Source: Candidatus Bipolaricaulota bacterium | GTDB taxonomy: Bacteria; Bipolaricaulota; Bipolaricaulia; UBA7950; UBA9294 | DNA: 64,000 nucleotides | Assembly (NCBI GenBank): GCA_028277345.1 | Contig: JANQGM010000005.1 | Location: forward strand, 124,001-188,000 | Reading direction: 5' to 3' | Shown: positions 32,681 to 49,262 of the stretch, piece by piece | Layout of the letters: the number at the start of each line of letters is the position of its first letter | Numbering within the stretch: position 1 is the first letter of the stretch | The notes under the pieces: generated by a model | What the model was told of the DNA's origin: nothing | The model's database searches: none | Seen by the model: only the letters and a program-made list of their open reading frames with translations | Program-made: the position numbers and the translations under genes

Positions 32681-33955
32681 ATGAACCTTGCCATTATCGG
32701 AGGGGGAAGCACCTATACTCCCGAACTCATTCATGGCCTCATCGAGGCCCGGCAAGCGTTGTCGATCGGCCGCATTTGCCTGATGGACATCGATGCTGAG
32801 CGGCTTGACATCGTCGGCCGGTTCGCGCAACGCATGGCTCTAGCCGCCGGTTCGGCACTGCACATCGAACTGACAACGGATCGAAAAGAGGCGCTGACCG
32901 GCGTCGATTATGTGCTCACCCAAATCCGCGTCGGCGGCATGCCGGCCCGCATTCAGGATGAGCGCATCCCCTTGAGACACGGAGCCATCGGGCAAGAGAC
33001 AACGGGCCCCGGCGGCTTCGCCAAGGCACTGCGAACGATTCCCGTTCTCCTCGATCTTGCCGACGATCTATCCCGACTGTCGCCGAACGCCCGGCTCATC
33101 AACTTCACCAATCCCTCCGGATTGATCACCGAAGCCCTGCTCAAGTACGCCTCCATCGAGGCCATCGGATTGTGCAATTCGCCAATTGGCGCGCAACGAG
33201 CGCTCTGCGATCACTTCCAGGTTGCCCCCGCTCGCCTCCGATTGGACTGGGTGGGGCTCAATCACCTCAGCTGGATTCGCGGTGTCTGGATTGACGAGGC
33301 CGATGTGCTCGATCGCGCCCTTGAGTTTGCCATTGAGGAGGGATGGGGGACCGCCTTTGAGCCTTCGTTGATCCGTGGGCTACGGATGATTCCCAGCTAC
33401 TACCTGGAGTACTACTACAACACCGATCAGGTCCTGGCGAAGCAGCAGTCCACGGCAATCATGCGGGGCGAAGAGGTTCTGGAGATCGAAAAACAGCTAC
33501 TGGCCATGTATGCCGATTCTGCGCTGGCGACAAAACCCGCCATTCTCGATCAGCGGGGCGGCGCCCATTACTCGACGGCCGCCGTTGACCTTCTACACGC
33601 CCTGGAAGGACGCGATGCGACCCAAATCCTCAATGCCGCCAACCGCGGTTCCCTACCGGGCCTTCCCGACGACGCCGTCGTCGAAGTGCCGTGCCGCATT
33701 CGTGAAGGCGCCGTTCGTAGCGAGCCTTGCGCGCCGATGCCCCCCACCATTCGCGGCCTGGTTCAGCGCGTGAAGGCCTATGAGGAGCTGACGATCGAAG
33801 CCGCTGTCTCGGGCGACGCCTCGCTTGCCGTCCACGCATTGAACGCACATCCCCTTGTGCCGTCGTACGCCATCGCTCAGCGGATCTGGCGCGACCTGCG
33901 CGACGCCCATGCCGCCCACTTGCCTCAGTTCGCCAAGCACGGAGGGATATCGTGA
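32681..33955 (+). CDS. Glycoside hydrolase family 4 (6-phospho-beta-glucosidase-like)
   Basis: A 424-residue NAD- and metal-dependent glycosidase. It opens with the NAD site MNLAIIGGGSTYTPELI, followed by GVDYVLTQIRVGG and INFTNPSG, then the metal-site motif IGLCNSPIG with the conserved Cys. These are family 4 traits and point to the 6-phospho-beta-glucosidase branch. The enzyme oxidises the C3 hydroxyl of the sugar before cleavage. ATG 32681 is chosen because the fold begins there; an in-frame ATG at 32648 would add eleven residues and lacks a good ribosome site. Its presence next to a phosphorylase means two cleavage routes for disaccharides. Confidence 0.87.
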   Translation: MNLAIIGGGSTYTPELIHGLIEARQALSIGRICLMDIDAERLDIVGRFAQRMALAAGSALHIELTTDRKEALTGVDYVLTQIRVGGMPARIQDERIPLRHGAIGQETTGPGGFAKALRTIPVLLDLADDLSRLSPNARLINFTNPSGLITEALLKYASIEAIGLCNSPIGAQRALCDHFQVAPARLRLDWVGLNHLSWIRGVWIDEADVLDRALEFAIEEGWGTAFEPSLIRGLRMIPSYYLEYYYNTDQVLAKQQSTAIMRGEEVLEIEKQLLAMYADSALATKPAILDQRGGAHYSTAAVDLLHALEGRDATQILNAANRGSLPGLPDDAVVEVPCRIREGAVRSEPCAPMPPTIRGLVQRVKAYEELTIEAAVSGDASLAVHALNAHPLVPSYAIAQRIWRDLRDAHAAHLPQFAKHGGIS

Positions 33956-34965
33956 AGGTCGTTCTAGGCGTCGATGGAGGCAACTCCAAAACTGCCGCAC
34001 TGATCATGCGCCATGATGGCCGCTGTCTCGGACACATCACGACCGAAGGCAGCAATCATGAAAACATCGGATTTCCCGCAGCAAGCCGCATCTTGAAGCA
34101 GGCTGCTGAAGATGCCCTGTCGTCCGCCGGCATCACTCCGCCCATCGACGTTGCCTTTTGGGGGTTGGCGGGCGTCGATATCGCATCGGATGAAGCCGCC
34201 TTGAGCGCCATCGTCGAGCGCCTTGACATTGCCCGCCGCAACATCGTCAAAAACGACGTGTTCGCCGCCATGGGCGCCGGGCTCTCCCGCGAATGGGGCG
34301 TCGGCATCATCAGCGGCGCCGGGTTCAGCGCCTGTGGTGTTGCGCCCGATGGGCGAACGCTTCAGTTCCCGTCGCTGGGCGCCGCCACCGGTGATTGGGG
34401 AGGCGGAACGGACATCGGATTGGAAACCCTTCGCTTGGCCCATCGCAGCTTCGATGGGCGTGGGGAGAAAAGCCAACTTGAGTCCCGCGTGCCCGCCGCA
34501 CTCGACCTACCCTCGCTCGCTGACCTTCCTCAGCGGATGCGCGACAACCGGTTCGACTGGGCTGCCGTGCGCGATCGACTGCCGCCCCTTCTTTTCCAGC
34601 TGGCAACGGAAGGCGATTCTGTGGCCCGGCGACTCGTGATCCGCATCGCCACGGAAGTCGCCGTGACGGCCATCGCTCTCCTGAAGCAGCTCGAACTCCT
34701 GAACATAAGGACGGACATCGTTTTGGGCGGCTCCATCTTTCATGCGACCGGACCGCTCCTCCTGGAAGCCATCACACGGACCATTCATCGAGAGGCGCCG
34801 CAGGCACGCATCGTTCGGCCCGAGTTTCCGCCGGTCGTGGGCGCCGCCTTCCAGGCCCTGCGCCGTGAAGGGATCGAGATCACCGACGACGTGCGCGTCC
34901 GCGTCCGCGCCACCCTTCCCATCGAGTTCGCGGGAACCAAATCCACTCCGAAAGAAGCAGGATAA
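33952..34965 (+). CDS. BadF/BcrA-type ATPase, probable N-acetylglucosamine kinase
   Basis: A 337-residue ASKHA-fold protein of the BadF/BadG/BcrA/BcrD and GlcNAc-kinase family. The phosphate-1 loop is VVLGVDGGNSKTAALI, the phosphate-2 region is WGVGIISGAGFSACGV, and the adenosine loop appears in DIVLGGSIFHATGPLL. Members phosphorylate amino sugars such as GlcNAc or act as activators of benzoyl-CoA-type dehydratases; the sugar context favours the kinase. GTG at 33952 overlaps the GH4 stop (GTGA), with GGAGGG upstream. It would turn the free sugar released by the phosphorylase into a 6-phosphate for the NagB-like enzyme. Confidence 0.83.
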   Translation: MKVVLGVDGGNSKTAALIMRHDGRCLGHITTEGSNHENIGFPAASRILKQAAEDALSSAGITPPIDVAFWGLAGVDIASDEAALSAIVERLDIARRNIVKNDVFAAMGAGLSREWGVGIISGAGFSACGVAPDGRTLQFPSLGAATGDWGGGTDIGLETLRLAHRSFDGRGEKSQLESRVPAALDLPSLADLPQRMRDNRFDWAAVRDRLPPLLFQLATEGDSVARRLVIRIATEVAVTAIALLKQLELLNIRTDIVLGGSIFHATGPLLLEAITRTIHREAPQARIVRPEFPPVVGAAFQALRREGIEITDDVRVRVRATLPIEFAGTKSTPKEAG

Positions 34966-34967
34966 CT

Positions 34968-36176
34968 ATGGGAATCGTAACCAATGCTTCGGCCCTTCAG
35001 CAGCAGTTCGAAACGGAACTCACCGGCAACATCTTGCCGTTTTGGCTGACTACCGCCTATGACGCCTCCACCGGCGGTCTTCACGGCGCCATTACCCATG
35101 AGGGTCGCGTCGCCGATCATGTGCCACGGTCGGCCGTGTTGATCGCCCGCGCCTTGTGGACCTTTGCCGCCGCAAGCCGAGCCATCGACCGCTCCGGGTA
35201 TCGCGACATGGCGAACCGAATGGCCCTGTACCTCCGTCAGTCATTGTGGGATCCGGAGTATGGGGGCCTGTATTGGGATGTCGATCGGAACGGCACGCCA
35301 CTCTCGGACCGAAAGCACCACTATGCACAAGCCTTCGGCATCTACGGCCTCAGCGAGCACGTCCGCGCTACCGGCGATACGGAGAGCCTCGCGTTGGCTG
35401 TCCAGCTGTTCGAGTTGTTGGAAGACCATGCCTACGATTCACGCTATGGCGGCTATTTGGAGGGCAGCACGCGGGAGTGGCAGCCGCTGAACGACCCGCG
35501 CTTGAGCAACCGCGATCACGCGAGTCCAAAATCGATGAACACGCTGCTTCATCTGCTGGAGGCCTACACGAATCTCCTGAGAATCTGGGACCACCCGCCG
35601 TTGCGCCAACGGTTGCGCGAGTTGCTCGATGTGTTCGCTGAACACGTCTTCGATTCTGAGACCGGCCACTATCGCCAGTTCTTCGCCCTCGACTGGACGC
35701 CGACACTGAAGGGCGCCTCGTACGGTCACGACATCGAAGCCAGCTGGCTGCTCTGCGAAGCCGCCGATACATTGGGCGATGCCGAGCGCCGTGATCGCGC
35801 CCGCACGCATGCCCTGATCACTGCCGAAGCGGTACTCGATCATGGGATCGCGCCCGATGGAAGCCTGCTCAACGAGAGCCACCCCAAGGACGATGTGGCC
35901 GAATTCAAGCACTGGTGGCCGCAAGCCGAAGCCATCGTCGGATTCACCAACGCCTACCAGCTATCCGCAGACGCCCGCTATGCAGACGCCGCGCTTCGCT
36001 GCTGGGACGTCGTCAAAACAGAGTTTGTCGATCGCGCCCACGGAGATTGGTTCAAGCGATTGCATCCCGACGGGACCCCCGATCCGACCAGCGAGAAGAC
36101 CGGCCCCTGGAACTGTCCCTACCACCACAGCCGCGCGTGCTTGGAAATGATGACCCGGCTCGCTCAGATCGCCTAG
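34968..36176 (+). CDS. N-acylglucosamine 2-epimerase / cellobiose 2-epimerase family protein
   Basis: A 402-residue (alpha/alpha)6-barrel enzyme of the AGE family. Key stretches are PRSAVLIARALWTFAAA, the catalytic-region HHYAQAFGIYGLSEH, NRDHASPKSMNTLLHLLEAY and SYGHDIEASWLLCEAA, where H of GHDIE and the HWWPQAEA histidine are the conserved acid/base pair of the family. Known members interconvert GlcNAc and ManNAc, or glucose and mannose at the reducing end of cellobiose. It lies two bases after the kinase stop and seven before the phosphorylase start, so it probably epimerises the same disaccharide or its product. Confidence 0.88.
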   Translation: MGIVTNASALQQQFETELTGNILPFWLTTAYDASTGGLHGAITHEGRVADHVPRSAVLIARALWTFAAASRAIDRSGYRDMANRMALYLRQSLWDPEYGGLYWDVDRNGTPLSDRKHHYAQAFGIYGLSEHVRATGDTESLALAVQLFELLEDHAYDSRYGGYLEGSTREWQPLNDPRLSNRDHASPKSMNTLLHLLEAYTNLLRIWDHPPLRQRLRELLDVFAEHVFDSETGHYRQFFALDWTPTLKGASYGHDIEASWLLCEAADTLGDAERRDRARTHALITAEAVLDHGIAPDGSLLNESHPKDDVAEFKHWWPQAEAIVGFTNAYQLSADARYADAALRCWDVVKTEFVDRAHGDWFKRLHPDGTPDPTSEKTGPWNCPYHHSRACLEMMTRLAQIA

Positions 36177-36183
36177 GAGGCCC

Positions 36184-38625
36184 ATGCGATACGGACACTT
36201 CGACAACGCTGCCAAGGAATACGTCATCACACGCCCGGATACCCCGACCTCCTGGAGCAACTATCTCGGCTCCACGGAGTATGGCGCCATCATCACCAAC
36301 AACGCAGGCGGTTATGGTTTCTATCGATCGGGCGCCCGAGGCCGTTTCCTTCGGCTGCGTTTCAACAGCGTGCCCATGGACCAGCCCGGACGCTACATCT
36401 ACCTGCGCGATGCCGAGACCGGCGACTACTGGTCGACGTCCTGGCAGCCGGTGGGAAAGCCCCTTGCCTCCTCGCAAGAGGGGGTTGAGAAACCCTATCG
36501 AAGCGTCTGCCGTCATGGCACGGCGTACACGGTCATCGAATCGGAGTACGCGGGCATCGCCTCCGAAACGACCTACTTCGTTCCCTTGGGACAGGCCTTC
36601 GAATACTGGCGGGTGAAGCTCACCAACCGTAGCGAGAGGGTCCGAAAACTGTCCGCCTTCACGTTCTGCGAGTTCACCAACCAATGGAACACCTTCCAAG
36701 ACCGCGTCAACCTGCAGTACTCCCTGTTCATCATCAAGGGTGAACGCACGAAGGACGGACTCCTTCGCATCGCCATACAAGACAACCTCACTCCCGAACC
36801 TAGCGCAACCTCCGGCGAGAAGGCCTACGATCACGACCTCGCCATGCACAGTTGGATGGCGATGCGCGGAAGCGATGTCACCGGCTACGACACGGACCGA
36901 GATGCCTTTCTCGGTCCTTATCGCAGCTATCACAACCCTCTCGCGGTCGAGGTCGGCGCATGCGCCAACAGCCAGGCCTATGGCGATAACGCCTGTGGCA
37001 GCTTGCAAACTGACATCGTGCTCCAGCCGGGGGAGAGCCGTGAGCTTCTCGTCATGCTGGGCATCGGCGATGCGAAAACTCGAGGCACGCAGACGGTCGA
37101 GGCCTTTGGGTCATTGAAGCGCGCCGACGAGGAGCTGGCCAAACTCAAGGCGCATTGGCACGGGCATCTTGGGAGCCTGATCGTCGAGACACCGGACGAC
37201 GAGCTGAATCACACCCTCAATGTATGGGGTCTCTATAACAGCTTGATCAGCTATGCATGGTCGCGCGCCGCCAGCCTCGTTTACAACGGGGAACGGGATG
37301 GCCTCGGGTTCCGTGACTCGGTCCAAGATATCCTCGGCATCGTGGCCGCCATTCCGGACGAAGCACGGACGAGGCTCGAACTCATGCTGACCGGGCAGCT
37401 GTCCAACGGTGGAGCCCTCCCCATCGTGCAACCGTTTGATCACCACCCGGGCCAGGAAGCGCCTCCAAATGACGAGGACTACCGTTCCGACGATTGCCTA
37501 TGGTTCTTCAACGCCGTGCCCGCCTATGTCGGCGAGACAGGCGATCTTGCTTTCTACCGTCGGGTTCTGCCCTTTGCCGATGAGGGTGAAGCCACCGTCT
37601 TTGAGCATCTGCGTCGTGCACTCGAATTCAATCTGGAGCGCAGCGGTTCCCACGGACTACCCTGCGGCCTCGCGGCTGACTGGAACGATTGCCTCCGGTT
37701 GGGATATCACGGCGAGAGCCTGTTCGTCGCCTTTCAGCTACGGCTCGGCCTGACCACCTACGTAGAAATCGCCGAGCGGCTCGACGAACTCCAGGAAGCA
37801 TCTTGGGCGCTGGAACGCCGCAACGCGCTGGATGCCGCTATTCAGGCGGTGGCCTGGGATGGCGATCGCTTCATCTGGGCGATCGGGGACGACGGCACCG
37901 TGTACGGAACAAGAGATGCGGAGGAAGGTTCGCTCTATCTCAATACCCAAGTGTGGTCCGTGATCAGCGGCGCGGCATCGGATGAGCAAGCCGAGACCTG
38001 CATGGAGAGCGTGAATCGTGAACTTGCCACGCCCTATGGCTTGATGTTGGCCGGACCGCCCTTTGTGAAGGCATCGCCCGACGTGATGAGAGCCGTCGTG
38101 TTTAACCCCGGGATCAAGGAGAATGCGGGGATCTTCAACCACACCCAGGGATGGGGCGTGATGGCCGAGTGTCTGCTCGGCCACGGCGACCGTGCCTACG
38201 AGTATTGCCGAGCCGCCTTGCCAGCTGCTTACAATGACCGGGCGGAGATCCGCCAGCTCGAACCCTATGTACAGGGTCAGACGACCTATTCCCCCTATTC
38301 GCCGCGCCCCGGCAACACGCGCACCTCGTGGCTCACCGGCGCCGCGCCATGGTCCTACTACAGCGCGACCCACTACATCCTTGGCCTCAAACCTGAATGG
38401 GACGGCCTACGCATCGATCCCTGCATCCCCAGCTCGTGGGACGGATTTACCGCCACCCGCCGTTTCCGGGGAGCAACACTAGAGATCATCGTGAAGAATC
38501 CGGATCGCGTCTGCCGTGGCGTTCGCTCCCTGACGCTGAATGGACAAATCCTAGAAGCCAATCTCGTACCCGCGGATCAGCTCGCAGACGTCAATCGGGT
38601 CGAGGTCATTCTCGGATCGCACTAG
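36184..38625 (+). CDS. GH94 disaccharide phosphorylase (cellobiose- or chitobiose-type)
   Basis: An 813-residue phosphorylase, the usual length for cellobiose and N,N'-diacetylchitobiose phosphorylases. It begins MRYGHFDNAAKEYVITRPDTP, a start typical of both. The N-terminal beta-sandwich (to about residue 280), linker, and (alpha/alpha)6 catalytic domain follow. LAADWNDCLRLGYHGES near residue 500 holds the general-acid Asp (in DWND). The end shows DPCIPSSWDGFTATRRFRG. It splits a beta-disaccharide with phosphate into a sugar-1-phosphate and a free sugar, saving ATP. The NagB and kinase neighbours hint at an amino sugar, but the motif evidence does not separate cellobiose from chitobiose. AGGAGG precedes the ATG. 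Confidence 0.9.
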   Translation: MRYGHFDNAAKEYVITRPDTPTSWSNYLGSTEYGAIITNNAGGYGFYRSGARGRFLRLRFNSVPMDQPGRYIYLRDAETGDYWSTSWQPVGKPLASSQEGVEKPYRSVCRHGTAYTVIESEYAGIASETTYFVPLGQAFEYWRVKLTNRSERVRKLSAFTFCEFTNQWNTFQDRVNLQYSLFIIKGERTKDGLLRIAIQDNLTPEPSATSGEKAYDHDLAMHSWMAMRGSDVTGYDTDRDAFLGPYRSYHNPLAVEVGACANSQAYGDNACGSLQTDIVLQPGESRELLVMLGIGDAKTRGTQTVEAFGSLKRADEELAKLKAHWHGHLGSLIVETPDDELNHTLNVWGLYNSLISYAWSRAASLVYNGERDGLGFRDSVQDILGIVAAIPDEARTRLELMLTGQLSNGGALPIVQPFDHHPGQEAPPNDEDYRSDDCLWFFNAVPAYVGETGDLAFYRRVLPFADEGEATVFEHLRRALEFNLERSGSHGLPCGLAADWNDCLRLGYHGESLFVAFQLRLGLTTYVEIAERLDELQEASWALERRNALDAAIQAVAWDGDRFIWAIGDDGTVYGTRDAEEGSLYLNTQVWSVISGAASDEQAETCMESVNRELATPYGLMLAGPPFVKASPDVMRAVVFNPGIKENAGIFNHTQGWGVMAECLLGHGDRAYEYCRAALPAAYNDRAEIRQLEPYVQGQTTYSPYSPRPGNTRTSWLTGAAPWSYYSATHYILGLKPEWDGLRIDPCIPSSWDGFTATRRFRGATLEIIVKNPDRVCRGVRSLTLNGQILEANLVPADQLADVNRVEVILGSH

Positions 38626-38643
38626 GCCTATACGTCGGCGCTC

Positions 38644-39357
38644 CTAGGCTTGCCGATCGGCCGACGGGAAACAGGCAAGCACCCGGACGGGGAAGCCTGA
38701 TCCGTCAACCGGTTTTGGAACGCCACAAAAGATGACCCCACCTCGCGGCGGCACGCTGTTCAGATTGCACATCATTTCGATCTGATAGCGTCCTCTCGAA
38801 TGCCAGTAGCGTTGCGCACGAAAGTCCCCCGCCGCCGTTCGGATACCACCGTCCGTGCCAATCGTTTCGTGCCCAATCGCGAGCACGGAGCGTTCCTCAG
38901 CGAGGAACTGAACCGATTCCATACTGAATCCTGGCCAATGCGTGATGCCGCCAGGGTCGCGGTTCTGCAGCCTCTCGTTATCCGGCCAGCGCAGGCTCCA
39001 GTCCGTTCGCATCGCCACGAATGCCCGTTCCGGGAGACGTCCATGCTCAGCTTCCCAAGCTTCAAGATCAGCGACCGTAAGAAGATAGTCCGCATCCCTG
39101 CCTGCCTGCCCCGAGGCATCAATCACAACCAAGGAAAGCACCAAGTCACGAGCATGAACGGCATCAATCCACGCCTTCCCGGGAGACAAATGGCCGGGCG
39201 GATCGAAATGCGTGGAACATTGACCCGGGAAGCAGTACATGTGGCTTGCAACGCCCAGAGGCTCCAATTCGACGATCGGACGAAAGGTCGTTGGCGGAAA
39301 CCCTTCGTACAGCGGCGTAGCCGGGCCGAAGGCATGGCTGAGGTCGACGACCTCCAT
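38644..39357 (-). CDS. Cyclase-family (kynurenine formamidase-like) metal hydrolase
   Basis: A 237-residue protein of the cyclase family (PF04199). It starts MEVVDLSHAFGPATPLYEGFPP, the common 'DLSH.....P.yPG.P' opening. The metal motif is CSTHFDPPGHLSPG (the HxDxPxH signature), with RTDWSLRW and GHETIGTDG further on; the His-Glu of GHETIG supports the second metal. The family hydrolyses formyl-kynurenine, lactones and cyclic amides. ATG 39357 lacks a good ribosome site; a GTG at 39387 would extend it by ten residues. It converges on the GH94 gene and follows the sugar kinase by 82 bases on the same strand. Confidence 0.83.
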   Translation of the reverse strand: MEVVDLSHAFGPATPLYEGFPPTTFRPIVELEPLGVASHMYCFPGQCSTHFDPPGHLSPGKAWIDAVHARDLVLSLVVIDASGQAGRDADYLLTVADLEAWEAEHGRLPERAFVAMRTDWSLRWPDNERLQNRDPGGITHWPGFSMESVQFLAEERSVLAIGHETIGTDGGIRTAAGDFRAQRYWHSRGRYQIEMMCNLNSVPPRGGVIFCGVPKPVDGSGFPVRVLACFPSADRQA

Positions 39358-39439
39358 GGCCGGGAGGCAATCGCCAAGTCCCTTCACGCTCGGCTGGGCC
39401 GCGTTGGTTTCCGCGCCATCAGCGAACTCGGATGGGCGA

Positions 39440-40435
39440 CTACCGGACAATGCGGAGTCCTCCCCCCTCAAGCACGCGGTCGACCTCATCGCGGGTGGCG
39501 AAACAGACATCGCCGGGCAGCGTTTGCTTCAAGGCGGACAGTCCCACGCCCAGGCAAACGCCCAGCTCCGCCCCCCCTTCCAGAAGGCCCGCCAGGAATC
39601 CCCCGACGAAGGAATCGCCGGATCCAACACGATCGACCACTTCGATCTCGAAGGTTGGCGCGCGGTAAACGGTATCGTTGGCGGCGTCATAGACGATCGC
39701 CGTCCACACGTTCTTCCAGACGGATGGATTCTCGCGCAGCGTAATTGCAACCAGTTCGAGTTCGAAGGTCTGGGCGAGTCGTTTTGCCACATCCTCGTAG
39801 GAGTCCGCCGTTATCCCAAACACACGTTCGGTGTCTTCCTCGGTGGCAAAGAGGATGTCGGTTGAGTTTGCAATGTCCGTCATCACCGCACGGGCTTCGG
39901 CCTGCGACCACAATCGAGCGCGGTAGTTCAAGTCAACGCAAACCTTCACTCCCGCACCTTGGGCTGCCTGAACGGCTTCCTTGGTGGCCGCCGCGGCGCT
40001 GGTCGACAGTGCAGGGGTAATCCCGGAGGTATAGAACAGCTTCGTGTTGCGAAAGACCGTTCCCCAGTCAATATCCCCCGGTTGAATGCCGGCGATCGCA
40101 GAATGCGCACGATCGTAGATGACGGCATTGGGGCGTGGCGATGCCCCAAACTCCATGTAGTACGTGCCAACACGATCCTCCGCCGTCCATGCGATGTGTG
40201 AGGTGTCGATTCCATGCTCGCGCGTTTTGTTTCGGATAAGCCGTCCCAGCGGATTCTCCGTAAGCCTAGAAACGTAGGCGACCTGCAGGCCCAATCGGGA
40301 AGCTGCAACGGCCGCGTTTAGCTCCGATCCCCCCACGTGAAGGTCCAGCGAACTCGCTTGTTCCAACCTCTGATGATTCGGCGGAGAAAGCCGAAGCATC
40401 GTCTCTCCAAAGGTCACTAGGTCGTAGCTCATCAT
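39440..40435 (-). CDS. PfkB-family 2-keto-3-deoxygluconate kinase-like enzyme
   Basis: A 331-residue PfkB kinase. The first signature is LHVGGSELNAAVAASRLGLQVAYVSRL and the second is DRVGSGDSFVGGFLAGLLEGG with the catalytic Asp in GSGDSF. The N-terminus DLVTFGETMLRLSPPNHQRL and the overall pattern are those of 2-keto-3-deoxygluconate kinases rather than ribokinases. It probably phosphorylates KDG to KDPG. A KDPG aldolase gene lies two genes upstream, with mtaB and mtaC between them, which makes a KDG-to-pyruvate branch likely. The start is ATG 40435 or 40432, with AAAGGAA in front. Confidence 0.85.
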   Translation of the reverse strand: MMSYDLVTFGETMLRLSPPNHQRLEQASSLDLHVGGSELNAAVAASRLGLQVAYVSRLTENPLGRLIRNKTREHGIDTSHIAWTAEDRVGTYYMEFGASPRPNAVIYDRAHSAIAGIQPGDIDWGTVFRNTKLFYTSGITPALSTSAAAATKEAVQAAQGAGVKVCVDLNYRARLWSQAEARAVMTDIANSTDILFATEEDTERVFGITADSYEDVAKRLAQTFELELVAITLRENPSVWKNVWTAIVYDAANDTVYRAPTFEIEVVDRVGSGDSFVGGFLAGLLEGGAELGVCLGVGLSALKQTLPGDVCFATRDEVDRVLEGGGLRIVR

Positions 40436-40504
40436 TTCCTTTCGCGCCTTGCGCGAGGCTCTTCAATCCATGCCAAGGCTTTATCTGCCTTGCTCCCGGA
40501 TGGG

Positions 40505-41881
40505 TTACGCCCCCTGAAGTCCGTACTCCGAGGGACGGTAGACGTCGGCATAGGAACCCGCTTCGATCATCTGATCGATCATGGCCTCTTCCTTCGCCGG
40601 CAATGCCGCTGCCGCCACTCGAAGCCGATTCAGCCAATCCACTTCTCGCTCGGGGAGTTGGACCGCGTTGTCGTCAACCGCACGGATCATCTCCTCGATG
40701 CTTTCTTGTACGGCGATGATCGTTTGCTCGTACGGCGTGACGCCCTCCACGATGCGCTCGCACAGCCGCAACACAACCTCGGGATGGAGGACATAGGCTT
40801 GAACATCCAGAGGAGCGTCGGACTCGGCCAACCATCGACTCAGACGGAGCGCGCCACCGTCCTCGGCGCTCGCTGTGTTCATGAGGCGGCAGTCATAGGC
40901 CAGGTGTTCCATGGAAACAACGGGCGCCTTGCCACTCAAGAGCTGGATATTCTGAACGGATTCATTCGACCACGCATCGCAAACGGCTTGCGCAACATTC
41001 CCCACCGGACTGAGATGGGCGCAAGCACACGATTTCCCCTCCATCGAGATGGGAATCCCCGCCATCGCCTTAAGATACGGGCCTTCATAGGCACAATCCT
41101 TGCTTGGCCCCGTTGCCCCTTCCAGATAGGCGACCAACGAGCGTGGAACCGTCGCCACCCGGACGATGGCGGCGAGGCTTCTTGGAATCATGCCTCGATC
41201 CGCGAGCACCATGGCTGTATTGGCGAAGCCACACGCGGTATCCCCCGCTGGAAGGATGCTCTGCCGCTTGCACTCCCCCACAAGGTGCGACCAGAGAAAC
41301 GCCATGTCACGATATGCCAAGACGCCCAGCGCGTAGACGATGCCTTTCAGATCGGCATGCAAGAGGGCCTTGTCGTGAATCTCTTTGCCTCCTGTGGATT
41401 CAATGGAGATCATGTCTGCCCCCGCGTGCCCCGCACCGGAAAAGATTTCGTTCATCGCCTCCCAGTGTTCACCACGGCGCATGAGCGGTGGTCGGCTCGA
41501 TTCCCGAATGTCGTTGGGCGTAAAGCGCAAGGCGCACTTGAGTCCATGCTCTGTATGCGCGCGCGCAAGCGCGTCGGCAAGAAGCCGAACGATCTCAAGC
41601 CCCCAGGCCGGGCGGTGCGTCATGCCCGGCAGCGTCTCGAACTCGACGAGCAGTTGCGGAACCTCAAGCTGAATGGCTCGCTCCAAGACCGAGCCAATCA
41701 TCTCCGAGTACTGGCGACGAACCTCCGGCCATGTGGATTCAGCAATCTCCATGGGAGGCAGCGTGAAGTTGATTTCCGGAACAACACTGCCCCCTCCGAT
41801 CGTCAATCCATGTCCGCACTCCACGGGATTCGGACAACGTCCGTAAACGAAATGATCTCGGTCGGTAATCGCCATCTTCAT
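40505..41881 (-). CDS. mtaB: Methanol:corrinoid methyltransferase (MtaB homologue)
   Basis: A 458-residue protein aligning along its whole length with archaeal MtaB, the zinc enzyme that moves the methyl group of methanol onto the corrinoid protein MtaC. The zinc ligands are all present at equivalent places: Glu161 in ISIESTGGKE, Cys217 in GDTACGFANTAM and Cys263 in GPSKDCAYEG. The downstream blocks AGIPISMEGKSCACAH and WSNESV, then LAYDCRLMN, are also shared. It directly follows the corrinoid protein gene, as in methanol operons, but lies beside a KDG kinase gene. Methanol or a close methyl donor is the expected substrate, although the exact donor is not proved. Confidence 0.9.
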   Translation of the reverse strand: MKMAITDRDHFVYGRCPNPVECGHGLTIGGGSVVPEINFTLPPMEIAESTWPEVRRQYSEMIGSVLERAIQLEVPQLLVEFETLPGMTHRPAWGLEIVRLLADALARAHTEHGLKCALRFTPNDIRESSRPPLMRRGEHWEAMNEIFSGAGHAGADMISIESTGGKEIHDKALLHADLKGIVYALGVLAYRDMAFLWSHLVGECKRQSILPAGDTACGFANTAMVLADRGMIPRSLAAIVRVATVPRSLVAYLEGATGPSKDCAYEGPYLKAMAGIPISMEGKSCACAHLSPVGNVAQAVCDAWSNESVQNIQLLSGKAPVVSMEHLAYDCRLMNTASAEDGGALRLSRWLAESDAPLDVQAYVLHPEVVLRLCERIVEGVTPYEQTIIAVQESIEEMIRAVDDNAVQLPEREVDWLNRLRVAAAALPAKEEAMIDQMIEAGSYADVYRPSEYGLQGA

Positions 41882-41923
41882 GGCATCCTGCCTCTCTTCA
41901 GCGTCGGGGCACGATATCGCCGC

Positions 41924-42547
41924 TTACGTCAGCGATTTCACCAATGCAACTGCAGTGGGCGCATCGTCGGCGTACCCATCCGCTCCGATTTCCTCCGCAT
42001 AGTCACGCGTCACCGGCGCTCCCCCGATGACCACGCGGACGGAGTCTCTCAACCCCGCGTCCTGAAGGGCTTGGATCACGCCGGGCATAAACACCATGGT
42101 CGTCGTCAACAACGCCGACATGGCGACCACATCTGGAGAGTGCTTCTGAACCGCCTCGACGAATTGCCCGGCTGTAACCTCTACGCCGAGATCGACAATG
42201 TCGTATCCTGCGCCCTCCAGCATGGTGGCAACCAGATCTTTTCCAATGTCATGAAGGTCTCCCTCCACCGTCCCGATCACAACCTTGCCACGCGATTCGA
42301 TGCCCGAAGCAATCAGCTGGGGTCGCAGGATTTCCATCGCCGATTTCATCGCCTCAGCGGAAACGAGCATCTCCGGGATGAACCGAATGCCGGACTCGAA
42401 CTCCTGTCCCACGATATCCATGGTGGCAATCAGACCGTCGCTCAATATCTCGCCCGGTGAAACGCCATCCTCCAGGGCCTGAGACGTCAGTTCAGCCGCC
42501 TCCGTCATGTCTCCCTTGAGGACGGCCTCCTTTAACAGGTTCAGCAT
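41924..42547 (-). CDS. mtaC: Corrinoid (cobalamin-binding) methyltransferase protein, MtaC-like
   Basis: A 207-residue B12-binding protein. Residues 1-85 form the helical cap domain (MLNLLKEAVLKGDMTEAAEL), and the Rossmann B12 domain begins with GTVEGDLHDIGKDLVATML, where D97-x-H99-x-x-G102 supplies the lower cobalt ligand. SALLTTTM (S144-x-L146) and GGAPVT (GG 175-176) complete the triad. It shuttles methyl groups between a substrate-specific methyltransferase and the acceptor enzyme. ATG 42547 has AAAGGTGG upstream; the frame open to 42673 is shadow. Its start overlaps the KDPG aldolase end by seven bases and mtaB follows. It is the only corrinoid protein in the window, so MttB at 60349 may also use it. 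Confidence 0.92.
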   Translation of the reverse strand: MLNLLKEAVLKGDMTEAAELTSQALEDGVSPGEILSDGLIATMDIVGQEFESGIRFIPEMLVSAEAMKSAMEILRPQLIASGIESRGKVVIGTVEGDLHDIGKDLVATMLEGAGYDIVDLGVEVTAGQFVEAVQKHSPDVVAMSALLTTTMVFMPGVIQALQDAGLRDSVRVVIGGAPVTRDYAEEIGADGYADDAPTAVALVKSLT

Positions 42548-43206
42548 CGATCCACCTTTCTTTGCTCGTAGGCTCCTTGGAGACGCTCCATCAGTTGCAC
42601 GGCTGAGTCCAGCGTTGCACGGAAGTCTCCGGACTTCAGGGCAGCAGGTTGCACAAACGATGTCCCAAGACATGCCGCGACGGCACCCGCATCCAAGTAC
42701 TCACACGCATTATCGACATTGATCCCGCCTGTTGGAAGGAGAGGGACATCGGGAAGCGGCCCCTTCACCGCGCGTATATAGGCAGGACCGCCCATAGACG
42801 CCGGAAAGATCTTCACGATATCCGCGCCGGCGCACCACGCCTGATAGATCTCCGTCGGCGTAAGAGCTCCGGGAATCGCCATCGCGTCGTTCGCCTTGGC
42901 AACCGCAATCACATCGCGATCCAGAGTTGGTGAAACGAGGAACTGCGCGCCCGCCTTAATGGCATCTCGAGCGTCGTTCTCATCCAACACGGTTCCTGCC
43001 CCAACGAGGACATCCGGATACGAGGATCGAAGCTCTTCAATGCAAGCGAGCGCCCCGGGAGTCGTCATGGTAATCTCGTGAACATCAAGACCCAACGCGG
43101 CGAGATCCCCCGCTAAGGTCATTAGGCCGATCGTCTGCGATCCCCGGATGACGACGACAATCCGAGTCTGCTGCATTCGTTTCAGCAGTTGCGTGGACTC
43201 AGACAT
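42541..43206 (-). CDS. eda: KDPG / KHG aldolase
   Basis: A 221-residue class I aldolase. The first motif is HEITMTTPG (the Glu-x-Thr of the active site), and the Schiff-base lysine is in ADIVKIFPASMGGPAYIRAVKGP. The phosphate-binding end is LLPTGGINVDNACEYLDAGAVAACLG. It cleaves 2-keto-3-deoxy-6-phosphogluconate into pyruvate and glyceraldehyde-3-phosphate, or hydroxyketoglutarate. ATG 43206 has GGAG a few bases upstream and overlaps the aminotransferase end by eight bases; translation is coupled to mtaC downstream. Its placement between an aminotransferase and methyltransferase genes is unusual. Confidence 0.9.
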   Translation of the reverse strand: MSESTQLLKRMQQTRIVVVIRGSQTIGLMTLAGDLAALGLDVHEITMTTPGALACIEELRSSYPDVLVGAGTVLDENDARDAIKAGAQFLVSPTLDRDVIAVAKANDAMAIPGALTPTEIYQAWCAGADIVKIFPASMGGPAYIRAVKGPLPDVPLLPTGGINVDNACEYLDAGAVAACLGTSFVQPAALKSGDFRATLDSAVQLMERLQGAYEQRKVDRC

Positions 43207-44317
43207 TCCGCTCACTCCTCTCCTGAGCAACGATAAGCTCTAAGGCATCCACAAAGGGCTGGAGACGGGCGATCGACGCCTGAACCCCCATATTCCCAAT
43301 TCGGAAGGCCTTCCCCTTGTAGCTTCCCATTCCACCTGCAATCAATAGGTTGTGGTCTTCTCGCAATCGCGCCATGACAGTTTCCACGGAGAGTCCTTCA
43401 GGAGGCCGCAGAGCGATGACCGTTGGAGATGCACGGTTCTCTGGGAAAACCCCCTCGAAGCCCAAGGCCGCCGTCCGAGCCATCAACCACGCGGCCATTT
43501 CGCGATGGCGAAGCCATCGTGCGCTCAATCCCTCATCGAGCACGCGTTCCAGCCCCCTACGGAGCGCGCGCAACGCTGGAACGGCCATGGTGATGGGATA
43601 GGGGTGCCAATCCGCCCACTTGTCTGCGTATCGCTGCCAGGTTTGGAGACTCAGATACCAGCCACGCGTGGCGTACGCCTTCATGCGCGACCACGCCTGG
43701 GGGGCGACGGCAACCAATCCCAACCCCGGAGGTCCTTCCAAACATTTTTGGGACGCACTGACGCAAACATCGATGTTCATCCGGTCCATGGACAACTCAA
43801 CACCACCAAGCGAGGAAATGGCATCCACCAAAAACGTCACCCCACGTTCGCGGCAAAGCGCTCCGAGGGACTCAATGGGGTTGAGAAGCCCGCTTGACGA
43901 TTCGGAATGAACAACCATCACTGCCGTGATCGCAGGGTGCTTCGCAAGCGCGTCAAGCAATCGCGAATCGGTAATGGGTTCGTCAACCGACAGTTGCTCG
44001 ATCGCCGTTTCCGGGAAATGACTGGTCGCAATTTCGGCAAGGCGATCGCCGAAGAATCCATTCGCCAAGATAAGCAATCGATCCTTCGATCCGATACAGC
44101 TTGAAATGGCCGCATCCAATCCCGCGCTTCCACTTCCCGGAATGGCGAAAACAGGACCTGAGGTGTCAAAGACGTTCTTTAGCAAGCCGATGGTTTCCTG
44201 GTAGTACGCCGTCCAGGCTGCGCCATAATGAGGGACCACAGGGCGAACCATCTCTTGGAGTACCGTTGGATCCAGCGTCGTGGGACCTGGGATGAGCAAG
44301 TCATAGCCGTCTAACAT
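43199..44317 (-). CDS. Class V aminotransferase (serine/alanine-glyoxylate type)
   Basis: A 372-residue PLP enzyme related to alanine-glyoxylate and serine-glyoxylate aminotransferases. It begins LLIPGPTTLDPTVLQEMVRPVVPHYG, the signature opening of the family, and the cofactor lysine lies in VSASQKCLEGPPGLGLVAV. FLVDAISSLGGVEL supplies the Asp that pairs with the pyridine nitrogen. Transamination between an amino acid and glyoxylate, or 2-aminoethylphosphonate-type chemistry, would be usual. The start ATG 44317 overlaps the aldehyde oxidoreductase end by seven bases, and GAAGGAG precedes it. A link to a C1 or C2 intermediate is inferred. Confidence 0.87.
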   Translation of the reverse strand: MLDGYDLLIPGPTTLDPTVLQEMVRPVVPHYGAAWTAYYQETIGLLKNVFDTSGPVFAIPGSGSAGLDAAISSCIGSKDRLLILANGFFGDRLAEIATSHFPETAIEQLSVDEPITDSRLLDALAKHPAITAVMVVHSESSSGLLNPIESLGALCRERGVTFLVDAISSLGGVELSMDRMNIDVCVSASQKCLEGPPGLGLVAVAPQAWSRMKAYATRGWYLSLQTWQRYADKWADWHPYPITMAVPALRALRRGLERVLDEGLSARWLRHREMAAWLMARTAALGFEGVFPENRASPTVIALRPPEGLSVETVMARLREDHNLLIAGGMGSYKGKAFRIGNMGVQASIARLQPFVDALELIVAQERSERNV

Positions 44318-46224
44318 GGCGACTCCTTCGACGAAAATTCACCGAGTTCCAGGTCCTCAAGAACCGTAGAGCCCGGAATTCCCGTCTCCCGATCCCACCC
44401 ATGAAGGTCGTAGTACGCCTGCACCATCCCTTTCATCGTCGTCTCATCAAGAATCAGATTCTCATTCCCAGACATGTCGATGGTCTCATTCATGAGCCGC
44501 CATGGCGCGTACTGGGAAGGATCTTCCTTCCATCCCAGCACGAGGTTGATGAGCCGTTCCAAGGTGACGATTCGGCGTCCAGCACGCATGACGGTTTCCT
44601 CTGTCGTCTCAATGCCCGTCATGGCCTGAAACAGCCGTGCGCACCGTTCCGGGGACGCCCCATAGGCTGCCGTCGAGATGAATGCACAAAGCCCAAGCGC
44701 GTCAGAGACGGCATAGATATCCTCGTGCCAGCGGACGATCTCCGCTCGCTTTTCGGTTGTATCCGGACGAGCAAGCTCGGCGCTCCCGGTGATCTTCTCG
44801 ATGAGATCCTTCATCTCCGGCGTCATGCCGAACTCGGCAATACACTCGGTATGCAGATGGTCCGGTCCCCGGGGATTGACGGCAAACGCAAGCGCGTATC
44901 CCATCGTGCCGCGGGTTTCCACGCGGCTTTGCTCCAATCCACGCGTATGTACGGCCCATTTCCAGGACTCTCCACCGATACGCCTGGCCGCTTCGGCGAC
45001 ACCATCCGCAAGCACATCTCCGAGTCCCTCTCTCCGCGCAATCATGCCGGGCAGCACCGTGATCGCTTCCGCGCTACCGAAAGAGAGATCCAATCCCTCG
45101 TACATCTCCGGAGGAAGCACACCGCGCTCGGCGCACTCCATGGCCCATTGAATCACCCCACCCGCTGAGATGGTGTCGAGTCCGAGATCGTTACAGAGTT
45201 CATTGGAGCGCTGCACCGCGCCGATGGAGTCAACCGCTGGCCCTGAACCCAGTGCGCTTACGGTCTCGTATTCCGGTCCCGCCGAGTAGGCGCCTCGATA
45301 AGGACCCTCTTCGATGCGGATGAAGCGATGACACGAGTAGATGCAAGACGCACACCCGATCCGCCCCTTGAGCAGTTTCTTCTCATTCCAGTACTGGCTG
45401 GTCAGCTCTTCGATCGTTTCGATGCTTCCCCGCTGGAAGTTGTAGGAGGGCAGCGTATCCGTTTCATTCATCAGATCGACGGATGCCGCGGTTCCGTAGG
45501 TGTAATAGCTATCCGACATCGTGTCCTGATAGAGTGCGGCGCGCATCTCCGCTTGCACGTCTCGGAACAAGCTCACATCGTGTGGTGTCAGACCGCGTTT
45601 GGGACGCGACAGCGCGATGGCCTTGAGGTTCTTCGATCCCATGACCGCGCCGCCTCCGCCCCTCGCCGCGGCGTTGTACACCGAGGACATCACGGCAGCG
45701 ATTCGCACCAGATTCTTGCCGGCGGGGCCAATACAGGCGACATTGATGTCCTGACCGTGAATGGCTTCAAGCGCCGCCGTCGCCCCCCGTACGCCCTTGC
45801 CCCAGAACTCCCCAGCCGAGCGCAGCTCGATTCCATCGTCTCCGATCCACACGTACGTTGGCTCCTCAGCCCTTCCCGTGATTCGGATGTAATCCGCCCC
45901 ATGCAGCTTGCAGTACAAGCCGAAATGCCCCCCCACGTTGGCCTTGCAATATAACCTCGTCGCAGGACTTACGAACGTGACATTGGATCGGCCCGACATC
46001 GGCGTGTTGGTTCCCGTCATCGTTCCCATGGAGAAGATGAGAGGAGCATCCGGCGACAGCGGATCGATCGGCCCGGACAAGGATCTCGCGAGCAAGGCCG
46101 CGGCGATGCCACGTCCGCCAAGGTAGTTGCGTTCATCGTCCCTTGAGATGGCCTGCCATTCGATCGATTTCCGGCTCAAGTCGATATTCAAAACGCGCTG
46201 TTCAAGCGAGCGGTTCTCAATCAT
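44311..46224 (-). CDS. Tungsten-containing aldehyde:ferredoxin oxidoreductase
   Basis: A 637-residue enzyme of the AOR family, about the usual 600-640 residues. The N-domain YLGGRGIAAALLARSL is typical, and the tungstopterin-binding domain follows. The [4Fe-4S] cluster is bound by C291, C294 and C298 (GCASCIYSC) with C513 in LGLCAFIST, the family's CX2CX3C...C pattern. GHFGLYCKLHGADYIRITG is also conserved. It oxidises an aldehyde to an acid and reduces ferredoxin. A ferredoxin gene overlaps its start, and a MoaD-like gene lies further upstream. Here it could oxidise an aldehyde from an alcohol or methyl-group branch of the island; the substrate is not known. Confidence 0.92.
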   Translation of the reverse strand: MIENRSLEQRVLNIDLSRKSIEWQAISRDDERNYLGGRGIAAALLARSLSGPIDPLSPDAPLIFSMGTMTGTNTPMSGRSNVTFVSPATRLYCKANVGGHFGLYCKLHGADYIRITGRAEEPTYVWIGDDGIELRSAGEFWGKGVRGATAALEAIHGQDINVACIGPAGKNLVRIAAVMSSVYNAAARGGGGAVMGSKNLKAIALSRPKRGLTPHDVSLFRDVQAEMRAALYQDTMSDSYYTYGTAASVDLMNETDTLPSYNFQRGSIETIEELTSQYWNEKKLLKGRIGCASCIYSCHRFIRIEEGPYRGAYSAGPEYETVSALGSGPAVDSIGAVQRSNELCNDLGLDTISAGGVIQWAMECAERGVLPPEMYEGLDLSFGSAEAITVLPGMIARREGLGDVLADGVAEAARRIGGESWKWAVHTRGLEQSRVETRGTMGYALAFAVNPRGPDHLHTECIAEFGMTPEMKDLIEKITGSAELARPDTTEKRAEIVRWHEDIYAVSDALGLCAFISTAAYGASPERCARLFQAMTGIETTEETVMRAGRRIVTLERLINLVLGWKEDPSQYAPWRLMNETIDMSGNENLILDETTMKGMVQAYYDLHGWDRETGIPGSTVLEDLELGEFSSKESPC

Positions 46225-46643
46225 TCCGTCTCACCTGCCTCTCCATAGCGAATGGCGCCCGGCTTCTGGCAGGTGGCGACACAGGCAGGCTGTCCTCCGC
46301 ACAGGTCACAGATCACGGGCACGGAGCGTTCATCCACAAAATGGATGGCTCCATAAGGGCATGCGGTTTCGCACGCGCGGCAGCCAATGCAAGCGTCGAT
46401 GTCAATCCGGATCGCGCCCACTTCTGGGTCAACGGACAATGCATCCACGGGGCACACCGCCACACAGAACCGCTCCTCGCACTGAATACAAACGCGCGGC
46501 GTGAACTCCCCTTGTTCCTCATGGCGAACGATTTGGATGCACGACCAGTCAAGTGCGAATGTGTCATGATGGGCGAAGGCACAGGACAACACGCAGCTCT
46601 CGCAGCCGGTACATTGCTCCTGTCGGATCATCATCCGTTTCAT
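46221..46643 (-). CDS. Four-cluster ferredoxin-type electron-transfer subunit of the aldehyde oxidoreductase
   Basis: A 140-residue protein with four cysteine blocks. The first is C11-x2-C14-x2-C17-x3-C21, and later blocks read CIQCEERFCVAVC, CIGCRACETACPYGAI and CDLCGGQPACVATC. This layout is that of HycB/DmsB-type subunits carrying four [4Fe-4S] clusters, which take electrons from a molybdo- or tungstoenzyme. Its stop overlaps the oxidoreductase start by four bases, so the two are made together. ATG 46643 has AAGGGGG upstream; the frame open to 46700 has no ribosome site. Confidence 0.9.
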   Translation of the reverse strand: MKRMMIRQEQCTGCESCVLSCAFAHHDTFALDWSCIQIVRHEEQGEFTPRVCIQCEERFCVAVCPVDALSVDPEVGAIRIDIDACIGCRACETACPYGAIHFVDERSVPVICDLCGGQPACVATCQKPGAIRYGEAGETE

Positions 46644-46666
46644 ACATCCCCCTTTGAGAGCTCGAA

Positions 46667-47140
46667 CTACGCGTCCGGTGCCTCCATAATCCATACACAC
46701 TCCGGTTCATCGCGGAAGATTCGTTTCCCCCACGTGAATTGAATGTCCGGGTTGAATCCCTTGACAAACCCGTGATCTCCTTCGCAGAAGACCATGGCGA
46801 TGTCGTGGAAGAGATCGTCCGGCAAGTCATACATCTCCAACGTGCTCTTGATGACACAGGCCTGGTTGTGAAAAACAAGCCGCTTCCCGTCCCATTCCGT
46901 GTCATCGCCCATCGGATACAGGGACTCCCAAACGGCTTTGAGGGCGGCGAGGTCGTTTGCCCCGGCGTGCTCAGCCATCCGCTTTCCGAACCGCACGCCG
47001 GCGTCGTACATCGCCTTGGCGCAGATCTCGCGAGCCACGTCGCGCCCATACTTCTTCTCAAGAGCAACCCAGATCTCCAAGTAGACGGTCGCTTCCCATT
47101 GATAGCCCGTCGCGAGATGATCGGTAATGACGCTTCCCAT
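46667..47140 (-). CDS. L-2-amino-thiazoline-4-carboxylate hydrolase-like (PF14196) protein
   Basis: A 157-residue protein resembling the ATC hydrolase-like family: a helical start with ALEKKYGRDVAREICAKAMYDAGVRFGKRMAE, then KRLVFHNQACVIKSTLEMYDLPDDLFHDIAMVFCEGDHGFVKGFNPDIQFTW and C-terminal cysteines. The family includes a thiazoline ring-opening hydrolase, but most members are of unknown function, so the name gives only a fold. It lies between the alcohol dehydrogenase and the ferredoxin genes on the same strand. AGGAGG precedes ATG 47140. A link to sulfur-containing heterocycles would fit the DUF917 gene further on. Confidence 0.55.
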   Translation of the reverse strand: MGSVITDHLATGYQWEATVYLEIWVALEKKYGRDVAREICAKAMYDAGVRFGKRMAEHAGANDLAALKAVWESLYPMGDDTEWDGKRLVFHNQACVIKSTLEMYDLPDDLFHDIAMVFCEGDHGFVKGFNPDIQFTWGKRIFRDEPECVWIMEAPDA

Positions 47141-47148
47141 GCTTCCTC

Positions 47149-48261
47149 CTATTGATCGTGGAACATGACCGAGCGCAGACACCCGGTTCCCTTCTTATCG
47201 AATGCCGTTGTAATCGCATCTCGCCACTCGGACAGGGGATAGCGGTGGGTCACGACAAAGTCATGGCGCACCTTCCCGCTCTCCAAGAGATCGACCGCAA
47301 TTTCGTAATCGCGCTTCATTCCAGTCGTGGAGTAGCTATTCGACGAAAGAATGTGAACCTCGTTGAAGAGCATCGTCAGAAGATCGATGGGGCGTTCTCC
47401 GTCGAAGATGCCGGTCATGATGACGCGTCCGCCGAGGCGACACATCTTGACCGCTTGGTTCATCACGTCCGTACGTCCGCCAACCCCTTCATAGACTGCA
47501 TCGACACCTCGTCCGTTCGTCAACCGCTTCACGTCCTCGACCGGATCGACATCTCCCTGAAGCAGAATGACCTCATCCGCTCCCGCTTGATGCGCAGCGT
47601 CCGCTTGGAAGGGGTATTTGGCCGTGGCATAGACCTCGGTGACGCCCCAGGCCTTCAAACACTGAATGAGATCGATGCCAATGACGCCCGATCCCAAAAC
47701 AACGGCGGTGTCTCCCGGCTTTGAACCGCCGATGGCCAAGGCATGAACCCCGACGGCCAGCACATCAATCAATGCCGCATCTTCGAAACTCACACGATCT
47801 GGAATCTTGAACAGACGGCTCTCGTGCACAATCGAGTACTCGCCGTACCCACCGGGCAGCATTTCCACAATCGGGATTCCCACATGGGTGAGTCCCCGTT
47901 CGCAAATGTGGTACTGCCCTGCTGCACAGGGATCACAGATCGGGAAGCGCTCCAGTTCGAGGCACCCGTGAAGGGGTTCAACCGCAACGCGATCTCCCGG
48001 TTTGAGGCGCGTCACATCGGCGGGAACCTCGGCGACGATTCCCGCGTTCTCGTGTCCAAGCACAGCGGGTAGGTTCTTATCAGGGATGTATCCACGCGTT
48101 TGTCCGTCGAGATAATGCAAATCGGAACCGCAGATTCCGGCGGCTTGATTCTTCACAAGCACCCATCCGGGTCTCACCTGGGGGCGAGGGAATTCCTTCA
48201 GCTCAAGGCCGTTGGGCCATTGTCCTCCGTCCCACACGATCGCCTTCATCATCGCTGTCAC
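47149..48261 (-). CDS. Zinc-dependent medium-chain alcohol dehydrogenase
   Basis: A 370-residue MDR dehydrogenase. The catalytic zinc site begins at AAGICGSDLHYL and the structural zinc loop is CLELERFPICDPCAAGQYHICE with four cysteines. The nucleotide fold is GDTAVVLGSGVIGIDLIQ. Substrates of relatives include threonine, sorbitol and short alcohols. In this island it may make the aldehyde used by the oxidoreductase. The start is GTG 48261, five bases after AAAGGAGG, or the ATG at 48252. It lies next to the peptide-type importer genes and eight bases before the next gene. Confidence 0.88.
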   Translation of the reverse strand: MTAMMKAIVWDGGQWPNGLELKEFPRPQVRPGWVLVKNQAAGICGSDLHYLDGQTRGYIPDKNLPAVLGHENAGIVAEVPADVTRLKPGDRVAVEPLHGCLELERFPICDPCAAGQYHICERGLTHVGIPIVEMLPGGYGEYSIVHESRLFKIPDRVSFEDAALIDVLAVGVHALAIGGSKPGDTAVVLGSGVIGIDLIQCLKAWGVTEVYATAKYPFQADAAHQAGADEVILLQGDVDPVEDVKRLTNGRGVDAVYEGVGGRTDVMNQAVKMCRLGGRVIMTGIFDGERPIDLLTMLFNEVHILSSNSYSTTGMKRDYEIAVDLLESGKVRHDFVVTHRYPLSEWRDAITTAFDKKGTGCLRSVMFHDQ

Positions 48262-48272
48262 ACTATCCTCCT

Positions 48273-49262
48273 TTACTTCGGAACGTCGCGCGATTCCTGT
48301 GCGGAACGCGAGTAGAGATGACACCACGTCTGAACCTGTTCAACACGTCTTGCTTCCGGAGCCTCCTGCGCGCAAATCGTCATGGCATGCTGACACCTTG
48401 GATGGAATCGACACCCGGATGGCGGTGCCGTCGGGCTAGGAATCTCTCCCACCAGCGGAGGAACAAGATCTCTCTTGGTGGGATCGGGAATCAATACCGA
48501 GCCAATCAGCGCCTGGGAATAGGGGTGGTTGGGACCGTCCAACACATCGGCCGTCGGCCCCAACTCCACGGGGCGCCCCAGGTACATCACAAGCAACTGG
48601 TCACAGAGCTGGCGTACCACGGAGAGATCGTGCGTGATGAGAACATACGCCAGCCCAAGCTCCTCCCGCAGTTGCATCAAGAGCGCAATCACTTGAGCCT
48701 GAAGCGATAGGTCCAGCGCAGAGGTTGGCTCATCAAGGATGAGGATTTCCGGTTGAGGGGCAATCGCACGAGCAATGGCAATCCTCTGTTGCTGACCGCC
48801 GCTGAATTGATGCGGCAGCTTCCGGATATCCGACGGACGAATTCCGACAAGCTCGAACAGTGCCCGAACCGCCGCCGGGCGCTCCCGGCGAGGCATTCGG
48901 GCAAGGTGAAGCAACGGCTCAAGGAGGCTGCGCTCCGCCGAGAACCGTGGATTGAGGGATCCTCCCGGATCCTGAAAGACCATTTGAACATTCTTCAGCA
49001 AGGCGCGTTTCCCTCGACGCCGGTAAACGCTTCGTCCATGCACGTGCACATCACCGGCCGTCGGACGGTAGAGCGACATAATGCACCGCGCAAGCGTCGT
49101 CTTCCCCGACCCTGATTCTCCAACGACGCCTATCGACTCGTGAGGGTTGAGGTCAAAATCAATGCCATCCAATGCATGCACCGTCTTGGTCACAAGCGGG
49201 AGATCGCCCTTGACGGAGAAGTGCTTCACAAGCCCGCGAACGCGCAACAGAGGACTAGACAT
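48273..49262 (-). CDS. Peptide-type ABC importer ATP-binding protein, DppF/OppF side
   Basis: A 329-residue ATPase. Walker A is GESGSGKTTLARC, the signature is FSGGQQQRIAIARA and Walker B is ILILDEPTSALDLS. The C-terminal extension with HPYSQALIGSV and GCRFHPRCQHAM is the oligopeptide/dipeptide family Fe-S-like cysteine tail. ATG 49262 follows AAGGAG and overlaps the partner ATPase gene by eight bases; an upstream frame to 49571 reads into the neighbour. It pairs with the protein at 49255 to drive the importer encoded beside it. Confidence 0.93.
   Translation of the reverse strand: MSSPLLRVRGLVKHFSVKGDLPLVTKTVHALDGIDFDLNPHESIGVVGESGSGKTTLARCIMSLYRPTAGDVHVHGRSVYRRRGKRALLKNVQMVFQDPGGSLNPRFSAERSLLEPLLHLARMPRRERPAAVRALFELVGIRPSDIRKLPHQFSGGQQQRIAIARAIAPQPEILILDEPTSALDLSLQAQVIALLMQLREELGLAYVLITHDLSVVRQLCDQLLVMYLGRPVELGPTADVLDGPNHPYSQALIGSVLIPDPTKRDLVPPLVGEIPSPTAPPSGCRFHPRCQHAMTICAQEAPEARRVEQVQTWCHLYSRSAQESRDVPK

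Follow-up and report, generated by a model that had tools for sequence, protein, structure and literature searches.

The window (64,000 nucleotides; positions 124001-188000 of its source contig in a Candidatus Bipolaricaulota genome) carries, on the minus strand, a gene for a methanol-corrinoid methyltransferase family protein (mtaB) and a gene for a corrinoid protein (mtaC), both lying between genes for a KHG/KDPG aldolase (eda) and a KDG-kinase-like protein (kdgK). These four genes form the downstream end of a minus-strand cluster of some 20 genes (approximately 38.6-61.8 kb), which was absent from a preliminary description of this DNA. The cluster may be a catabolic operon for a methylated or methoxylated compound into which a corrinoid methyl-transfer pair has been built, a reading that was given a probability of roughly 45%.

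Corrinoid methyl transfer has mostly been studied as a feed for methanogenesis or acetogenesis. Here, it recurs within a cluster for sugar-acid-type catabolism in an uncultured phylum, and a literature search found no publication joining MtaB with Bipolaricaulota. Were the coupling true, one operon would both remove the methyl group and degrade the carbon of some methylated compound, and the locus would be a clear-cut example of a resident corrinoid protein being adopted by a first methyltransferase (MtaB).

Structure of the four-gene block

The genes occur in the order eda (42541-43206), mtaC (41924-42547), mtaB (40505-41881), and kdgK (39440-40435). The preliminary description had reported them as contiguous on one strand, with mtaC overlapping the aldolase end, and the genes, their order, and the overlap were all borne out. 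The likely mtaC start was placed at 42547, an ATG behind a AAAGGTGG ribosome-binding site, which shortened the gene; after this correction mtaC overlaps the aldolase stop by 7 nucleotides (nt; ATGCTGA). Gaps of 42 nt and 69 nt separate mtaC from mtaB and mtaB from kdgK, respectively. The region 38400-48500 showed no promoter-like site, and the four-gene block contained no terminator-like site; the overlap of eda and mtaC, taken with the lack of a promoter-like site, suggests that the genes are co-expressed.

The two flanking enzymes look like those named previously. The kinase belongs to the PfkB family (PF00294) and its closest solved structure is the Thermotoga KDG kinase 2afb (E 2.7e-70), by which it would be KDG-kinase-like; equivalog models for KDG/KDGal kinases match it below their cut-off (322 versus 440). 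The aldolase matches PF01081 and scores above the cut-off of TIGR01182 (190.7 versus 156), and its Glu and Schiff-base Lys align to a Thermotoga-derived chain.

The phylum sample comprised 100 genomes of a single class, mostly of 1-2 Mb. The kinase was found in 32 of these genomes, with relatives 57-71% identical in most of them. At 19 of the 29 kinase loci examined, the kinase gene has a same-strand aldolase gene no more than 150 nt upstream of it; several of the other ten loci were cut by contig ends, and an aminotransferase gene stands between the pair in two. The window differs in that mtaC-mtaB holds the aldolase and kinase genes 2.1 kb apart. Given that the aldolase and kinase genes are neighbours phylum-wide and that two other genomes also have a corrinoid gene in this cluster, the four-gene arrangement is real and not accidental. 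In a genome of the same genus (G093, locus L038), the two genes are adjacent and their products are 71% (kinase) and 42% (aldolase) identical to those of the window; the contig was assigned to its lineage because of this kinase identity. The aldolase-kinase pair looks like a standard part reused by different operons, since this same-genus relative has a uronate-type operon around its pair.

Families and origins of MtaB and MtaC

MtaB gave a full-length match to PF12176 (518 bits versus a curated cut-off of 25), and it matches the structure 2i2x_A from Methanosarcina barkeri (E 5.5e-82). The zinc ligands Glu164, Cys220, and Cys269 (M. barkeri numbering) are all conserved. The score against the methanol equivalog model NF040651 (NCBIfam) was 372.5, below its cut-off of 720, and the protein was therefore filed as a member of the family and not as a proven methanol enzyme. 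Methanol, the substrate named in the preliminary description, is accordingly not upheld, the protein belonging to a divergent branch.

The branch also holds the closest relative found, 59% identical, which is encoded in a Verrucomicrobia metagenome-assembled genome (locus L002). The two proteins are 36-39% identical to all other MtaB sequences compared (36% between the window protein and M. barkeri MtaB), whereas identities across groups among M. barkeri MtaB and four bacterial homologues are 46-52%. Among the 146 columns fixed in M. barkeri and those four homologues, 45 are changed in the window MtaB, and 36 of these 45 are also changed in L002. The stretch next to the zinc cysteine is GDTACGFAN in the window protein and GDTDCAQAN in that of M. 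barkeri. Plasmids and viral contigs were searched for further MtaB relatives and none were found. A clade of acetogen MtaB has been described (PMC5770442). At L002 (9336-14098), the gene of the divergent branch stands in a compact mtaC-mtaB-RACo-UroD set.

Within the phylum sample, mtaB is an addition seen in 1 of the 100 genomes, that of the window. Its base composition is not distinct from its surroundings, so that a transfer, if any, was not recent. A recent insertion of mtaCB was likewise rejected, given no notable flanking repeats and no difference in composition.

MtaC has two B12-binding domains (PF02607 and PF02310) and keeps the D-x-H-x-x-G motif as GDLHDIGK. Its closest structure, at 52% identity, is 1y80, reportedly the methanol-induced Moorella corrinoid protein of Das et al. 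(2007). The methanol corrinoid protein of that study is discussed in PMC13391211, where 1y80 is not named. Scores against the methanol MtaC models fell below their cut-offs (134.8 versus 420 for NF040655; 149.4 versus 450 for NF040669), and the top-scoring model, MtgC_2, was likewise below its own. Relatives approximately 55-65% identical occur in some 20 phylum genomes. In a tree, the window MtaC pairs with the corrinoid protein of a matching cluster in genome G075 (87/78) and the L002 MtaC with Moorella 1y80 (96/90); a topology uniting the window and L002 proteins was rejected (approximately unbiased test, p-AU 0.03). The MtaC tree thus weakly rejects the idea that mtaB and mtaC arrived together from the L002 lineage. 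Judged by these alignments and tree positions, the window MtaC is the phylum's own corrinoid type, and mtaB looks like the newcomer beside a resident mtaC. MtaB would presumably work with this MtaC; one corrinoid protein can serve different first methyltransferases (PMC13391211).

Two described systems offer a comparison. The MtaBC of M. barkeri (2i2x) shares with the window the full-length MtaB match and the three zinc ligands, while the window MtaC is nearer to bacterial MtgC/1y80 types. The acetogen mtaA1C1B1 of Moorella thermoacetica (PMC13391211) also sets an MtaB-family methyltransferase beside a corrinoid gene of similar type. The window differs from it in having no adjacent MtaA, in placing the pair inside an aldolase-kinase cluster, in its phylum-type MtaC, and in a genome in which no acetyl-CoA synthase was found.

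Matching clusters and the proposed route

Two genomes hold clusters with nearly the same gene set. In G075 (L111, L056), the genes run DUF917-uroD-dppABCDF-ADH-ATCh-AOR-AT5-eda-kdgK in the window order without mtaCB (ADH, alcohol dehydrogenase; ATCh, ATC_hydrolase-family protein; AOR, aldehyde ferredoxin oxidoreductase; AT5, class V aminotransferase), so that the order is largely the same, and they continue with iclR, DUF917, a ferredoxin, a second AOR, a corrinoid protein, a methyltransferase of methyl-tetrahydrofolate (methyl-THF) type, and a RACo-type activator. In G097 (L041, L103), the kinase, aldolase, AOR, an MttB-family gene, a corrinoid protein, and a UroD-like gene form one cluster. 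Both differ from the window in having no MtaB and in placing the corrinoid gene outside the aldolase-kinase gap. Given that a corrinoid gene is clustered with the pair in both genomes without MtaB, the association of methyl transfer with the KDG branch is a recurrent one that does not require MtaB. In a third genome (G032), an MttB-family gene directly follows kdgK. These clusters favour the earlier proposal that the operon deals with a methyl group as well as with the carbon skeleton that ends at the kinase and aldolase, with its pectin, uronate, and methanol specifics removed. The G097 cluster also contains a PFL2-3-family glycyl radical enzyme (L041, 10344-12719) alongside the aldolase-kinase pair and AOR.

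As proposed, the Dpp-type importer of the cluster would take up a small acid or sugar derivative bearing methyl or methoxyl groups. MtaB, the MttB-family protein, and/or the UroD-fold protein would move its methyl group onto Co(I) MtaC, which would be kept reduced by a RACo-type activator (one was found outside the cluster, on contig C28 of the genome), and the methyl group would pass to a one-carbon carrier, probably tetrahydrofolate. Oxidation of the skeleton would fall to the alcohol dehydrogenase and the AOR-ferredoxin pair, the pyridoxal phosphate-dependent aminotransferase would also act on it, and the resulting 2-keto-3-deoxy acid would be phosphorylated by the kinase and split by the aldolase to pyruvate and triose phosphate. 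A bolder version, which we consider doubtful, is that the window/L002 branch of MtaB demethylates a larger methoxylated or methyl-ester acid instead of methanol and that the cluster is an undescribed pathway coupling corrinoid demethylation, AOR oxidation, and the KDG kinase/KDPG aldolase branch. Both the binding protein and MtaB open the question of the substrate to direct testing.

The window genome (2.76 Mb in 40 contigs) is 89.6% complete, which limits every genome-wide absence reported here, and its gene-neighbourhood views cover the stretches around search matches. Uronate isomerase, altronate/galactarate dehydratase, KduI, enolase-type dehydratase, and IlvD/Edd dehydratase were not found in this genome, in searches that were all positive in control genomes (14 of 14 for IlvD/Edd). 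The preliminary description took absence of any uronate pathway from the genome as grounds for refuting its pectin or methyl-esterified uronate substrate, and the failure to detect uronate isomerase, altronate/galactarate dehydratase, or KduI supplies those grounds, within that completeness. The corresponding operon, in which MtaBC would take pectin-derived methanol and the kinase and aldolase the uronate carbon, does fit the four-gene order. It also has a parallel in G093, where the adjacent aldolase-kinase pair is accompanied by KduD, KduI/IolB-family, and galactarate/altronate dehydratase-family proteins and a tripartite ATP-independent periplasmic (TRAP) importer. The window shares with that operon the kinase and the aldolase, but its importer is of a different type, its MtaB is below the methanol cut-off, and its genome lacks detected isomerase, dehydratase, and KduI. 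The pectin/uronate reading was rejected on these absences and is regarded as very improbable. An aldonate route via enolase-type or IlvD/Edd dehydratases was rejected in the same way, as neither family was found. The IlvD/Edd result also suggests that, within the genome's completeness, branched-chain amino acid synthesis by the IlvD route is lacking.

Several of these results weigh against the coupled operon proposed here. Because no KDG-forming dehydratase family was found, be it altronate/galactarate, enolase-type, or IlvD/Edd, there is a gap in the path to KDG. Neither acetyl-CoA synthase (CdhC family) nor a methyl-THF methyltransferase like that of G075 (a query without a positive control) was found in the window genome, and an acetogenic fate of the methyl group was rejected on the former. 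The phylum clade of MtaC is weakly supported (86/49). Finally, mtaB could be a passenger with a role of its own, namely an ordinary methanol methyltransferase that lies beside a resident corrinoid gene, serves free methanol, and has no part in the operon's carbon route. Its presence in one genome only, its intact zinc site, and the compact L002 operon of its relative would all fit; the corrinoid gene itself, however, is part of the matching clusters of other genomes, and the aldolase-mtaC overlap without a promoter-like site points to co-expression. On balance, a passenger mtaB is somewhat unlikely.

The aminotransferase and the MttB-family gene allow another explanation. The aldolase would act on 4-hydroxy-2-oxoglutarate, the aminotransferase would take the glyoxylate, and a betaine-type amino acid derivative would be demethylated via the MttB-family protein, with MtaB as an accessory. 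The aldolase models are bifunctional for KHG and KDPG, the aminotransferase closely resembles AGXT-type enzymes, the cluster includes an MttB-family gene, and the glycyl radical enzyme of G097, a generic PFL2-3 member, scores for hydroxyproline dehydratase below the cut-off. Such a route would give nothing to do to the KDG kinase, with which the aldolase is most constantly associated, and the window cluster showed no glycyl radical enzyme; we hold it to be highly unlikely.

Other genes of the cluster and the window

The cluster extends from an MttB-family gene at 61812 to a gene for a PF04199 cyclase/hydrolase family protein (38644-39510; start uncertain), with all genes on the minus strand. 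The MttB-superfamily methyltransferase (60349-61812; PF06253, 275 bits) has no pyrrolysine stop; its closest solved structures are 2qne and the glycine betaine methyltransferase 9yce, and the copy following kdgK in G032 is 54% identical. The next stretch (56235-60383) encodes an FMN reductase, an Asp/Glu racemase family protein, a flavin reductase, a Pfam-less protein, and an IclR regulator. An S-Me-THD (DUF917) family protein (55102-56220; PF06032, PF20906) recurs in the clusters of relatives.

The UroD/MtaA-fold protein (53915-55096; PF01208) is a candidate methyltransferase. Its predicted model, a weak one (pLDDT 63, four sequences), matches both the methyltransferase 4ay7 and UroD and speaks to fold only. 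It carries H-S-D (H-x-D) where its counterparts in G075, G080, and G032 have H-S-C (H-x-C); this motif is a hint, and the assignment of the protein is weak.

Five genes (48273-53904; starts uncertain) encode the peptide-type DppFDCBA ATP-binding cassette importer, with the binding protein matching SBP_bac_5 and the ATPases and permeases recognised by translation; G075 has the same order at 49-69% identity. These are followed by a zinc alcohol/polyol dehydrogenase (47149-48327; start uncertain; PF08240, PF00107; 71% identical to that of G075), an ATC_hydrolase-family protein (46667-47182; start uncertain; PF14196), and a four-cluster-type ferredoxin (46221-46700; start uncertain; Fer4 families). 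The AOR (44311-46224; PF01314, PF02730) matches 1aor (E 4.5e-95) and is 69% identical to the G075 gene product. The class V aminotransferase (43199-44317; PF00266) is AGXT/PhnW/PPAT-like and stands beside the aldolase-kinase genes in several relatives.

A further set lies on contig C28 of the window genome (L110, 9480-16216), where a second corrinoid gene is followed by an MttB-family gene, a ferredoxin, and AOR, an order that recurs in G092, G075, and G073. Counting the present cluster as well, this genome thus has two places at which MttB, corrinoid, and AOR genes keep company.

Elsewhere in the window, two sets of genes were recognised from translations only. On the plus strand, an N-acetylglucosamine/chitobiose-like set (31903-38625; NagB-like, GH4-like, NagK-like, epimerase-like, and GH94-like proteins) ends tail to tail with the cluster. 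On the minus strand, a set at 15406-25500 resembles purine/pyrimidine or amide catabolism, with hydantoinase-like amidohydrolases, a molybdenum hydroxylase, and dihydropyrimidine-dehydrogenase-like and creatininase-like proteins.

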